Shown here: positions 878 through 34,198 of the stretch, piece after piece
How the letters are laid out: each line of letters opens with the position of its first letter
How positions within the stretch are numbered: position 1 is the stretch's first letter
Origin: Pseudobdellovibrio exovorus JSS
GTDB taxonomy: Bacteria > Bdellovibrionota > Bdellovibrionia > Bdellovibrionales > Bdellovibrionaceae
Direction: 5' to 3'
Assembly: GCF_000348725.1 (NCBI RefSeq)
Contig: NC_020813.1
Span: 372,001 to 436,000, forward strand
Length of the DNA stretch: 64,000 bases
The notes under the pieces: model-generated
Told to the model about the DNA's origin: nothing
Databases searched by the model: none
The model's input: the letters and a program-made list of their open reading frames with translations, nothing else
Made by a program: the position numbers and the translations under genes

Positions 878-1861
878 ATGCGTTTTGGGATTCTTTCTTT
901 TATTCTACTTTTAAGTTTAAGCACTCAAGCGGCTATATATAATTATGACTATTGGTGGCCACTAGAACTCACTCGCTATTTTCAGCAGGTCAATCGTAAA
1001 ACGCAGATGTCTCCACCGGCTTCTACAGGTGTAGCTGAAAAATGCGGTGGCATTTACACTCAAGCCATAGCTAAGGGCGAAATGGATGTTCGTTACGCTC
1101 TAGGATATTTCGATGATACACAGGGGAAAGAAGTTCATTTTGATGGACGCAACTATGGTCTGTCGCCAAGTTTAGACATCGCGGTTTTCCATGTGATTCG
1201 TGGTTTTATGAAACGCCCATGCGTGAATCAAGGCCAGCAGATTTGTGAGTTCGCCGAGTCCGGAAATCCAGAGCAAGGATTAGTGGTGCTATCTAAGACG
1301 ATTTTTTTAGATCAGCGCCCAGTCAATGTGAAAATGACACTGACTCATGCTTCGGCCTCTGAAAGTTTCACGGCGAATAAAGGAACGTTGGTAACACGTC
1401 AGTCTCAATTAACTCGTCAATCCGAGCAAAATTTCTTCGGAGCTTTAGGGCGGGCGGATATCGTATTTTATAATGGTCACTCGCGCAATGGAGGTGGACC
1501 TGATTTCAACCCACCGATCTTAAATCGCCAAAATAAAACCAATTACACAGGCCACTATGAAGTCAGACGTGATGGCATCAAACGCTTTTTAGATCTGATG
1601 GGGCAGTCTCGTAATCCTGATCAAGTTGTGGGTTTCTTTTCGTGTTATTCCCGTCGTCACTTTCACCGCGATATCATGCGTGTGAATCCGAATCAGAAGG
1701 TGATCCTTTCTGCGGATGAAATCGATTACTTGGATTCGTTATTGGCTTCGATGGGATATCTAGAGGGCTTTATGCAAGGTCGCTGCGGACAAGATCTCGC
1801 TGACTTTGCAAAACAAGGCGCTAAAATTCAAAATGGATTTCAAGGTTATAATTTACGCTAG
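878..1861 (+). CDS. secreted protein with clan-CD protease-like His/Cys motifs
   Basis: The product is 327 aa and begins with a clear signal peptide (about residues 1-18, cleavage after TQA), so it is exported. I do not recognise the family by name. Two blocks stand out. A hydrophobic strand leads into the GH pair of FYNGHSRNGGG (His about 201), and a second hydrophobic strand leads into FFSCYS (Cys about 256). That order and spacing is the signature of clan-CD cysteine peptidases such as caspases, gingipains and separase: strand-HG, then strand-[AS]C. Other cysteines (about 56, 115, 123) may form disulfides. The gene stands alone between a hydrolase and a convergent gene. The protease assignment is an inference. 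Confidence 0.6.
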   Translation: MRFGILSFILLLSLSTQAAIYNYDYWWPLELTRYFQQVNRKTQMSPPASTGVAEKCGGIYTQAIAKGEMDVRYALGYFDDTQGKEVHFDGRNYGLSPSLDIAVFHVIRGFMKRPCVNQGQQICEFAESGNPEQGLVVLSKTIFLDQRPVNVKMTLTHASASESFTANKGTLVTRQSQLTRQSEQNFFGALGRADIVFYNGHSRNGGGPDFNPPILNRQNKTNYTGHYEVRRDGIKRFLDLMGQSRNPDQVVGFFSCYSRRHFHRDIMRVNPNQKVILSADEIDYLDSLLASMGYLEGFMQGRCGQDLADFAKQGAKIQNGFQGYNLR

Positions 1862-29197: not shown

Positions 29198-29554
29198 ATG
29201 ATACATATTAAATCAAGGCCTTATATCATCAAGATTTTTCACCAAGAGAGTGGCAAGGCTCCTTATTCGGAATGGATTAGGACTCTGGATGACTCAGTTC
29301 GCGCCCGAGTAGCGGCAAGAATTGCTCGCTTTGAAGATGGTCACTTCGGTGATTACAAGGCTGTTGGTGATGGTGTTCTGGAAGCAAGATTCTTTTTTGG
29401 TTCAGGACACAGGGTTTATTTCTCTGTTCATGGTGACGAGATAATCTTGCTACTGAATGGTGGAGATAAATCTACGCAGGCAGATGACATTGAAAAGGCG
29501 AAAGAGTTGTTAAAGACTTATTTGGAGGATCAAGATGCCAACAAGAAGCAGTAA
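29198..29554 (+). CDS. RelE/HigB-like toxin (Gp49/DUF891 type)
   Basis: The product is 118 aa. It fits the Gp49-like RelE superfamily: YSEWIRTLDDSVRARVAARI, then EARFFFGSGHRVYFSVHGDE and LLLNGGDKSTQADDIEKAKE. Members are mostly ribosome-dependent mRNA interferases. The N-terminus has about 15 residues before the usual start of the domain, and no Shine-Dalgarno precedes the ATG. The 3' end overlaps the antitoxin gene by 20 bases, toxin first, as in HigBA. Confidence 0.9.
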   Translation: MIHIKSRPYIIKIFHQESGKAPYSEWIRTLDDSVRARVAARIARFEDGHFGDYKAVGDGVLEARFFFGSGHRVYFSVHGDEIILLLNGGDKSTQADDIEKAKELLKTYLEDQDANKKQ

Positions 29555-29822
29555 TTGGAGCGAAGATGTTTCGCAAGAGCTTCGAGACACCAACTATGCG
29601 CAAAGCTTTTTATTGGCTCTGTTGGACGAGGGTGACGACTTACAGACGGCATTGGGAAGGCTGATTCGCCTGTATGGAGTTAAAGAGTATGCACAGTTGG
29701 TTGAAATGGAAGATTCTGCGATTCAAAGAGCAATCAATCCGGCTCATAATCCAACAAAAGGCACGCTCGAAAAACTTTTGGCTCCATTAAAGCTCAGTCT
29801 CGGGGTAAAGCCAGCAGCTTGA
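29535..29822 (+). CDS. HigA-like antitoxin, HTH
   Basis: The product is 95 aa. It matches the addiction-module antidote family of COG3636 type: DTNYAQSFLLALLDEGDDLQ at the N-terminus, then a helix-turn-helix region (KEYAQLVEMEDSAIQRAINP) and the tail TKGTLEKLLAPLKLSL. It neutralises the toxin and probably represses the operon. A Shine-Dalgarno TTGGAGGA lies inside the toxin gene, 6 bases before the ATG. The order toxin then antitoxin with a 20-base overlap implies translational coupling. Confidence 0.9.
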   Translation: MPTRSSNWSEDVSQELRDTNYAQSFLLALLDEGDDLQTALGRLIRLYGVKEYAQLVEMEDSAIQRAINPAHNPTKGTLEKLLAPLKLSLGVKPAA

Positions 29823-31554: not shown

Positions 31555-31732
31555 GAATAAGACTTAACTGATTTTGAGCAGATAGTAAATGGCAGTCGCA
31601 CGGCACGCTCATTTTGCTTAAACAAAGTTCTAGTTTTTACAGCCTATGTAGCGTCTTGAGTTCGACCATGGTCTTTGTCGCTATATTGTCATATGCAAGG
31701 ACGTATGATAGCTTAAATGTTAGAAATACGAG

Positions 31733-31795
31733 CTAATATAAGTTCAGAATTTGGCTGAACGTCTCTACCAACTGCCGCTAAGAGTTGACTATTGG
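31733..31795 (+). promoter_or_regulatory. purine riboswitch (guanine-type)
   Basis: The aptamer of the purine riboswitch is visible in full. P1 is CTAATA/TATTGG (31733-31738 with 31790-31795). J1/2 ends in UAUAA. P2 is GTTCAG/CTGAAC with L2 AATTTGG. J2/3 is GTCTCTACC (canonical GUUUCUACC). P3 is AACT/AGTT with L3 containing CCGCTAA. J3/1 is GACTAT. The C in GACTAT is the specificity base for guanine; adenine aptamers have U. It ends 47 bases before the start of the downstream transporter. The expression platform is not clear and may act on translation. Confidence 0.88.
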
Positions 31796-31842
31796 AACGT
31801 CTATAAAGTGCTTCTTACTTAAGGGGCCGATAGGGTTTTAAA

Positions 31843-32841
31843 ATGATAGTTCACTCGAACACTGAAGAAATGAAATCTGGAAGTACGACTCAAGGAGTTT
31901 TATTCGTTGCACTGGGCGCCTCAAGTTACGGCATGCTATCCACCATTGTGAAGCTGGCATATCAACACGGGTTTACGACGGCCGAAGTGGTGATAGCTCA
32001 GTTTGTCTGGGGCCTTTTGTTTTTAACAGTCTTCGATTACCTCTTTAATAAAAAAGGCAAAGCTCCCACATCTCAGGATACGCTTCAGTTACTTATTGCG
32101 GGGATACCATTAGGACTTACGAGTCTACTTTACTACACATCAGTGAAGTATATTAACGCCTCTATTGCCGTGGTGTTATTAATGCAGTCGGTATGGATTG
32201 GCGTCGTTGTCGAGTCTATTCACAGTCGTCGGTGGCCCAGTATGGCGAAAGCTTTAGGCGTCGTGCTGGTTCTATTTGGAACAGTCCTTGCGACCAATGC
32301 TTTAAATGCATCTTCTGGATCTTTAGATATTCGTGGAGTCATCTTTGGGTTCTTATCAGCCCTATCTTTTAGTTGGACACTTTTTTCAAACAGCGCTGTG
32401 GCTTCACACTTGCCTGTTATTAAACGCAGTCAGTTGATGGTCAGTGGCGGGATGATGGTAGCTCTGGTGTTTTCATTTCTGACACAGATTGCTCCGTACT
32501 ATTTAAATTTTGAATTGCTGAATCAAGACATGATTCAAAGTCAGGCGTTTAATTTTTCGATTTTTTCTGGCTATGGTTTGTTAGTCGCACTTTTTGGTAC
32601 GGTGATGCCGCCGTTATTGCTCAATAAAGGCTTTCCAATAATCGGCGTGGGGCTTGGCAGTATTGTGGCTTCAGCAGAGCTTCCCTGTGCTGTTCTAATT
32701 GCCTTTGCTCTGCTACATGAAACAGTAAATGCCAGCCAGTGGCTCGGAGTGGTGATTATCCTTGCTGCCATTGTCGTTTTAAATTACCGCATTGTTGGGA
32801 CAGCTAAAGAGACTTTGGGTGAACCTCATCAAAATCACTAA
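31843..32841 (+). CDS. EamA/DMT-family transporter
   Basis: The product is 332 aa with about ten membrane segments in two similar halves, as in EamA exporters. The first half has VLFVALGASSYGMLSTIVKL and the end of the second has a segment finishing LHETVNASQWLGV. The riboswitch in its leader points to purine-related control, so it may export a purine base or a related compound. That is inference. Its stop overlaps the convergent 91-aa gene by 4 bases. Confidence 0.88.
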   Translation: MIVHSNTEEMKSGSTTQGVLFVALGASSYGMLSTIVKLAYQHGFTTAEVVIAQFVWGLLFLTVFDYLFNKKGKAPTSQDTLQLLIAGIPLGLTSLLYYTSVKYINASIAVVLLMQSVWIGVVVESIHSRRWPSMAKALGVVLVLFGTVLATNALNASSGSLDIRGVIFGFLSALSFSWTLFSNSAVASHLPVIKRSQLMVSGGMMVALVFSFLTQIAPYYLNFELLNQDMIQSQAFNFSIFSGYGLLVALFGTVMPPLLLNKGFPIIGVGLGSIVASAELPCAVLIAFALLHETVNASQWLGVVIILAAIVVLNYRIVGTAKETLGEPHQNH

Positions 32842-33113
32842 TCCTCTTCAAGGATTTCTTTTAGTGTTTTTCGATCTTCTGCATTCAGTACTAACCATTC
32901 CGGTGGTAATTCTTTAACGACGGCAGCCCATGAAGCTTTGACCATATCACGAGCGCGGGGTTTGTCGTGTAGATCACGCAGTAAGTTCAAATGGCGCAAT
33001 ATAATGGTGCGAACGGGTTTATAGAAGCCATTTTCATCTTTGCCAGCATTACTGATGGTATCAGAGGACTCAACCTTTTGAATCAATTCAGAGAAGTAAT
33101 TTTTTAGGCTCAA
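32838..33113 (-). CDS. small hypothetical protein
   Basis: The product is 91 aa, soluble and helical, with no signal peptide, membrane helix or motif I recognise. Its start overlaps the msrAB stop by 4 bases (33110-33113), so it is probably translated as the second gene of an msrAB transcript. Its 3' end overlaps the convergent transporter gene by 4 bases. Confidence 0.6.
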
Positions 33114-34198
33114 AACTCAATCTTTCTTTCGAAGTGGCAGGTGTAGCCATTCGGTACTTTTTGTAGATAACTTTGATGATAGTCTTCAGCGCGCCAAAAG
33201 TCGCTGAGTTGCTGTAGTTGCGTCACGATAGGCTTTTTCCATGCCTTGGATTTTTCTATACGCTGTTTGACTTTTTCAAATGTGGCTTTCTGTTCTGGTG
33301 ATGAATAAAAAACGACCGAGCGATATTGTGTCCCCACATCATTGCCTTGGCGATTCATGGTTGTCGGGTCGTGGATTTTGAAAAAATAAGTCAGGAGTTT
33401 TTCGTAAGATGTTTTTTTAGGGTCAAAAAGAATTTGTACCGCCTCAGCATGACCTGTTTTTCCGAGTTTAACGATTTCATAGGTGGCATTTTTTAGATCT
33501 CCACCAGTATAGCCGACCTGTGTTTCAAGGACTCCGCTTTGTTTACGTAGTAAATCTTCAACGCCCCAGAAACAGCCACCAGCAAACGTGGCGACCTCCC
33601 ACGATTTCTTTTTTGCAAAATCAAATAGGTAGGCTCCATAGCCGAGCTTTTGCATATCAGCTAAAGGTATGAATTTTAGGGAAGCTGAATTGATACAGTA
33701 GCGTAATCCTCCTGCTTCTTTTGGGCCATCGTCGAATACATGACCTAGATGAGATCCGGCGCTACTAGAAAGGACCTCTTTTCTTTCATAGCCTATTTTG
33801 AAGTCAGATTTGAACTTTAGATGTCTGGTGTCGATAGGTTTAGTGAAGCTGGGCCAGCCAGAACCAGAATCGTATTTGTCTAAGGAACTGAATAAAGGTT
33901 CTCCTGAAACAATGTCGACATAAATGCCATCTTCCTTGTGATCCCAATAGGCATTTTTAAATGGAGGTTCTGTTCCGGCTTCCTGTGTACAACTGTACTG
34001 CTGTGGTGTCAGACGTTTTTTCAGTTCTTGTTCGGAAGGCTTTTTATAATCCCGTTTTTCAGATTGAGGTATTGATGTAGATGACGTTGCCGTTTGCTCT
34101 GCTGGTTGTCGTATAGACGAGGGACTAAATTGATGAGTCCATTTAAGACCGAGGTATAATCCTGCACAAAAGAACGCTAGAAGGACGAACTTTTTCAT
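33110..34198 (-). CDS. msrAB: fused methionine sulfoxide reductase MsrB-MsrA, exported
   Basis: The product is 362 aa. An N-terminal signal anchor (about residues 3-20) places it in the periplasm. The MsrB domain comes first (about 60-190) with catalytic Cys 168 in LRYCINS. The MsrA domain follows (about 200-362) with catalytic Cys 209 in GGCFWG and a C-terminal Cys in GYTCHF. It repairs both epimers of oxidised Met in exported proteins. The MsrB zinc Cys pairs are absent ([12 protein letters not shown] instead of CxxC), and Ser 113 replaces a frequent resolving Cys; Cys 70 may substitute. The downstream 91-aa gene overlaps its stop. Confidence 0.93.

Follow-up and report, generated by a model that had tools for sequence, protein, structure and literature searches.

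What does a purine-sensing RNA do in front of a transporter gene of a predatory bacterium, which purine would it recognize, and would it raise or lower the transporter? The locus that raises this question lies in a 64,000-nt stretch of the Pseudobdellovibrio exovorus JSS genome (hereafter, the window), for which a preliminary description had claimed a purine aptamer upstream of an EamA gene and had proposed a search with the Rfam purine model. When this model was run by cmscan, RF00167 matched at 53.6 bits against a cut-off of 37, with an E-value of 2.4e-06 computed over the entire 64 kb window and over its full length (model positions 1-102 of 102), and a tRNA was the sole further Rfam match across the window. 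The aptamer was thus confirmed, whereas the span formerly assigned to it, 31733-31842, turned out to lie about 20-30 nt too far 3′, ending one base before the start codon (Table 1).

Table 1. Positions of the features discussed, in window coordinates except for the last two rows, which refer to Bacteroidota loci.
Feature	Position	Strand	Detail	Basis
Purine riboswitch aptamer	31714..31811	+	extent of RF00167 match	cmscan
P1 5′ strand	31729..31738	+	CGAGCUAAUA	Rfam consensus alignment, anatomy script
J1/2	31739..31741	+	UAA; U22 = 31739	Rfam consensus alignment
P2-L2 hairpin	31742..31760	+	stem GUUCAG/CUGAAC, loop AAUUUGG (L2 31748-31754)	Rfam consensus alignment
J2/3, binding core	31761..31768	+	GTCTCTAC(C) / GUCUCUAC; U48 -> C; U51 = 31766	
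P3-L3 hairpin	31769..31787	+	stem CAACU/AGUUG; L3 has CC	Rfam consensus alignment
J3/1	31788..31789	+	A73 and C74 (31789); TAT after AC through 31792	
P1 3′ strand	31790..31799	+	UAUUGGAACG	Rfam consensus alignment, anatomy script
Presumed ribosome-binding site and spacer	31830..31839	+	AUAGGGUUUU	partition function
Start-codon G and next codons	31845..31850	+	GAUAGU	partition function
EamA/DMT-family transporter gene	31843..32841	+	332 aa	ORF list, PF00892
Adenine-type aptamer before EamA ortholog (L204)	1227-1324		U74	
Adenine-type aptamer before EamA ortholog (L270)	about 1501-1598		U74	

All the parts named in that description (P1, P2, L2 AATTTGG, J2/3, P3 and J3/1) were present, and the CC of L3 was located opposite the GG of L2, as for the loop-loop pairing known in the family. 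P1, in which two pairs were mismatched, was weak and consisted of 6 bp followed by a 2x2 internal loop and 3 bp. In the core, U20, A21, U22, A23, U47, U49, C50, U51, A52, C53, U75 and A76 all matched the consensus type, and the replacement of U48 by C was the sole departure. C74 is the specificity base for guanine/hypoxanthine in purine aptamers, and the C to which this specificity had been ascribed proved to be C74; the ligand contacts U22, U47, U51 and C74 were all of the guanine type. With C74, U51 and a J3/1 lacking an insertion, the marks of the guanine class, the assignment of the aptamer to the guanine/hypoxanthine type is supported at the level of sequence. The minimum free energy fold of the bare leader did not display the aptamer and its z-score was ordinary; purine aptamers are not expected to stand out by this measure.

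The gene starting 32 nt behind the aptamer had been read as an EamA transporter, and PF00892 bore this out with 75 bits (cut-off 28.2; E 8.9e-21) in two stretches corresponding to two repeats. Because the upstream neighbour, a DUF1456 gene, is divergent and the downstream one convergent, with no close same-strand gene following, it appears to be transcribed alone. The protein did not reach the curated NCBIfam equivalog cut-offs (TIGR00950, 61.9 versus 230.2 bits; ArnE, 20.2 versus 92), a sequence search of solved structures gave no match to it, and no substrate was found for any EamA protein close to it. Elsewhere in the window, at 29198-29822 (+), a Gp49-like gene of the RelE/HigB type overlaps a region that matches an addiction-module antidote family below threshold, the two likely forming a toxin-antitoxin pair, and a fused SelR (MsrB) and MsrA protein with a signal-like stretch at its N-terminus is encoded at 33110-34198 (-).

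Counting with a profile of the EamA proteins over 369 genomes of the phylum, we found the family in 12 genomes, and a purine aptamer was located upstream in all 12. Eleven of these aptamers scored above the Rfam cut-off and one (G008), which carries C at position 73, fell below it at 35.1 bits; a thirteenth (L130/L237), close to the end of its contig, is followed by sequence encoding the N-terminus of an EamA protein. The guanine-type core (U22, U47, U51 and C74) was conserved in 13/13, and the U48C substitution in J2/3 was found in 12 of the 13, compared with 2/133 in the branch preceding secreted proteins described below. Given the covariance score and this conservation before the same gene in 12/12 genomes, chance is excluded as the origin of the window aptamer. 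The weak P1, a poorly populated aptamer fold and the sub-threshold G008 aptamer could be taken as signs of a decaying relic that has lost its regulatory role in the host. We regard such decay as quite unlikely, because the binding core, P2, P3 and L2/L3 are all intact, the score lies far over the cut-off, and the linkage is invariant even though the EamA proteins of the linked genomes share just about 50-57% identity.

Outside the phylum, the nearest EamA relatives (about 50% identical) were found in Flavobacteriaceae, mostly without a purine aptamer. In Amniculibacterium aquaticum and a relative (G392), both Bacteroidota, an adenine-type (U74) aptamer precedes the EamA ortholog by about 180 nt; its resemblance to the EamA-branch aptamers in P2 and P3 suggests a shared origin followed by a change in ligand. 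In the EamA tree, the phylum proteins formed one group, albeit with weak support (82/72), and the Amniculibacterium protein branched close to the base of the Bacteroidota part. Purine control is thus tied to this transporter in two phyla, and the gene and the aptamer have probably been linked for long while the ligand type changed, which points to a purine-related substrate more strongly than any single case could. The purine connection formerly suggested for the transporter has therefore gained ground, and the choice between import and export, which had been left undecided, can be narrowed only to a preference for export.

The host genome, a single contig of 2,657,893 bases, contained exactly three RF00167 matches, and the two that the preliminary description had overlooked both precede genes of secreted proteins. 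One (L001/L034, G000:C1:1071272-1071369) sits directly on the start of a secreted HNH-type nuclease gene, and the other (L003/L035, G000:C1:1806661-1806757) directly on that of a secreted PD-(D/E)XK-like protein gene; both are of the guanine type, with the ribosome-binding site within or just behind P1. The PD-(D/E)XK-like protein has invariant GELD...EVK...Q residues, and its predicted model (pLDDT 91) resembled restriction-endonuclease-like folds with a best Z of 7.8, which is below the level at which such a match stands alone; a sequence search of solved structures gave no match for it.

At least one RF00167 match was present in 71 of the 141 genomes of the order and in 93 of the 369 of the phylum. 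The genes behind the 151 aptamers collected from the latter encoded HNH proteins (76), endonuclease I (39), EamA (13), PD-(D/E)XK-like proteins (11), endo/exonuclease/phosphatase proteins (6), DUF3465-like proteins (4) and others (2). Accordingly, signal-peptide-like proteins, almost all of them nucleases, lie behind 138 of the 151 aptamers, and a hydropathy count, which is not a signal-peptide predictor, gave a strongly hydrophobic N-terminus of this kind in 137/138. In G004, the gene for endonuclease I located at 3.41 Mb is probably bd3507, judged by genome and position only. At six loci (L055, L067, L092 and L129; L177 and L195), the secreted proteins behind a P1-embedded aptamer belonged either to a DUF3465-like (sub-threshold) family or to one of about 268 aa, and are possibly undescribed nucleases or nucleotide-handling proteins. 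Position 73 was U instead of A in 48/133 nuclease-branch aptamers (e.g., L045, L057 and L078) and in 0/13 of the EamA branch.

The gene set of the nuclease arm bears on the identity of the ligand, since 2′-dG-II riboswitches control a similar set (PMC8872408); this, together with the near-fixation of U48C in the EamA branch, might suggest that 2′-deoxyguanosine, guanosine or xanthine is sensed as a signal of nucleic acid digestion. Such a ligand seems very improbable to us. U51 and C74 are kept in all 146 core-readable phylum aptamers, and position 48 is not known to contact the ligand in guanine riboswitch structures. The 2′-dG classes require C51 (PMC8872408) and the xanthine variants carry a J3/1 insertion (PMC9295807), and both variants were rejected for the window aptamer in view of its U51 and its J3/1 without insertion.

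The two branches differed markedly in how the aptamer is joined to the gene. In the secreted branch, the start was located at a median of 14 nt past U75, a Shine-Dalgarno-like motif began no more than 8 nt from U75, within the P1 3′ strand, in 130/132 loci, and P1 positions 3-5 covaried strongly relative to shuffled partners (z 7-10). Since the ligand-bound P1 would hide the ribosome-binding site, the nuclease arm is predicted to be switched OFF by guanine. The start of the EamA genes, by contrast, was 21-66 nt from U75 (median 49), and a P1-embedded site was found in none of the five EamA loci with a recognisable one; in the window, about 40 nt separate the site from U75. A transcription terminator was rejected as the platform of the window aptamer, as no intrinsic terminator was detected on the + strand between 31500 and 31950. 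A promoter scan gave no promoter either.

Although the expression platform had been called not obvious, a candidate can be proposed in which the ribosome-binding site and the first codons are sequestered by base pairing to the 3′ half of the aptamer. In the partition function of the free model, 31830-31839 paired with 31794-31804, which includes 31794-31798 of the P1 3′ strand, at 0.80-0.99, and 31845-31850 paired with 31788-31793 (J3/1 and P1 3′ strand), C74-G31849 reaching 0.92. Forcing P1 largely freed 31834-31850, with 31831-31833 remaining about 80% paired. The free ensemble lay about 5.7 kcal/mol below the aptamer fold, a figure in which tertiary contacts and ligand are uncounted. Across the EamA branch, the ribosome-binding region of the free ensemble paired with the segment from J2/3 to the P1 3′ strand above the shuffle mean at 12 of the 13 loci (combined p 4e-5; 1.2e-4 when two near-duplicates were removed), and forcing the aptamer raised the accessibility of the start at 11/13 EamA loci versus 30/132 secreted loci (Mann-Whitney p 2e-5, for loci that are not independent). 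The duplex test between ribosome-binding site and aptamer core was significant at 4/13 EamA loci, the window not among them, the pairing partner in the clamp varied among loci, and the start was closed in both models at L125, L127 and L136. These models favour an ON switch for the EamA branch, a direction that we put forward as a hypothesis since the clamp test gave p = 0.12 for the window locus alone.

The opposite direction, in which guanine would lower an importer of prey-derived purine bases or nucleosides, deserves consideration since guanine riboswitches mostly repress uptake and synthesis genes. The host would also have use for such an importer: no purF over the cut-off and no purH were found in its genome, which holds two HPRT genes, and de novo purine synthesis thus looks lost and salvage kept, so that purines must be taken up. 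This gene content makes purine auxotrophy of the host, and its dependence on prey purines, probable; purF is retained in most relatives, G004 included, and the purF match was weak in G011, G020, G024, G027 and G030. Furthermore, the ribosome-binding site of L176, 21 nt from U75, could join an extended P1. Nevertheless, we judge an OFF switch, a serious alternative chiefly on account of this auxotrophy, to be the less likely one at the window locus, where the site is remote from U75, the forced aptamer opens rather than closes the start and no intrinsic terminator was detected; the design of the nuclease arm does not recur in the five EamA loci with a recognisable site. EamA transporters of known substrate are, moreover, mostly exporters.

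We therefore prefer, with a probability of roughly 0.57, the reading that the riboswitch controls translation of a single EamA gene encoding a guanine-activated purine-base transporter, probably an exporter. The comparisons above establish the aptamer with its guanine-type core, its invariant gene linkage, the regulon and the two arrangements, and from these the ligand binding, switching direction, substrate and transport direction are inferred. Without ligand, 31788-31804 (J3/1 and the P1 3′ strand) would clamp 31830-31850, the segment holding the ribosome-binding site and the first codons, and keep translation of the transporter low. Binding of guanine or hypoxanthine would close the three-way junction and let P1 form, which would undo the clamp and allow the transporter to be translated. 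The protein would then carry purine bases or nucleosides across the membrane, most likely as an exporter, and may thereby relieve a purine excess during digestion of prey nucleic acid, as PbuE does in Bacillus under the adenine riboswitch. Purine export by a purine auxotroph is not an obvious design, which counts against this preferred reading. In the wider proposal, the EamA genes would be one arm of a phylum-wide purine regulon whose secreted-nuclease arm is OFF with guanine; that the predators of this phylum share such a guanine regulon, with the EamA arm on and a change between guanine and adenine aptamers from phylum to phylum, seems to us an even bet.

If this proposal is true, the breakdown of prey nucleic acid would be regulated through feedback by what it releases. 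From the genes that the aptamer precedes, the predators appear to couple the digestion of prey nucleic acid, as well as its transport, to the level of guanine in their own cells. Published work on two secreted DNases, Bd0934 and Bd3507, found that they are made sequentially, with no regulator named and riboswitches unmentioned (PMC7925074). As to how Bdellovibrio-type predators time nuclease release, the riboswitch in front of many such genes would provide direct feedback and a simple way to report on the purine status of the predator within its prey. It also gives a strong hint of the substrate class of the window transporter, and the two arms would make a natural OFF/ON pair of platforms that share one aptamer within a single cell. 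In the literature searched, we found no report of purine riboswitches in Bdellovibrio, nor of guanine riboswitches that join secreted nucleases and a transporter into a regulon in such predators, although hits of this kind may have been listed earlier in surveys of riboswitch distribution. Already known are the aptamer family, the protein families, purine-family riboswitches on endonuclease I (PMC8872408) and a ribosome-binding site inside P1 (PMC2258182).

Compared with the guanine class of the xpt-pbuX type (RF00167), the window element shares the three-way junction, P1/P2/P3, the L2-L3 G-C contacts, the J2/3 and J3/1 core and C74, and differs in its EamA target, the change of U48 to C, the lack of a terminator and the proposed translational ON platform. 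The pbuE/ydhL adenine riboswitch of Bacillus subtilis is likewise a purine aptamer that turns on a transporter at purine excess, as proposed here, although pbuE encodes an MFS pump behind an adenine aptamer and a terminator, whereas the window has an EamA/DMT protein, a guanine-type aptamer and a translational platform. The 2′-dG-II riboswitches of Bacteroidetes, which control endonuclease I and ComEC (PMC8872408), resemble the nuclease arm in placing a purine-family aptamer before nuclease genes; the aptamers described here, from a different phylum, are of the guanine type by U51, the J3/1 without insertion and the A-U pair atop P1. Occlusion by P1 is commonest in TPP, preQ1 and SAM-I riboswitches, purine not being named among them, and the SAM-I class carries the ribosome-binding site in the P1 3′ side (Barrick and Breaker, 2007; PMC2258182). 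The nuclease arm would share with SAM-I this direct occlusion by P1, from which the EamA arm departs.
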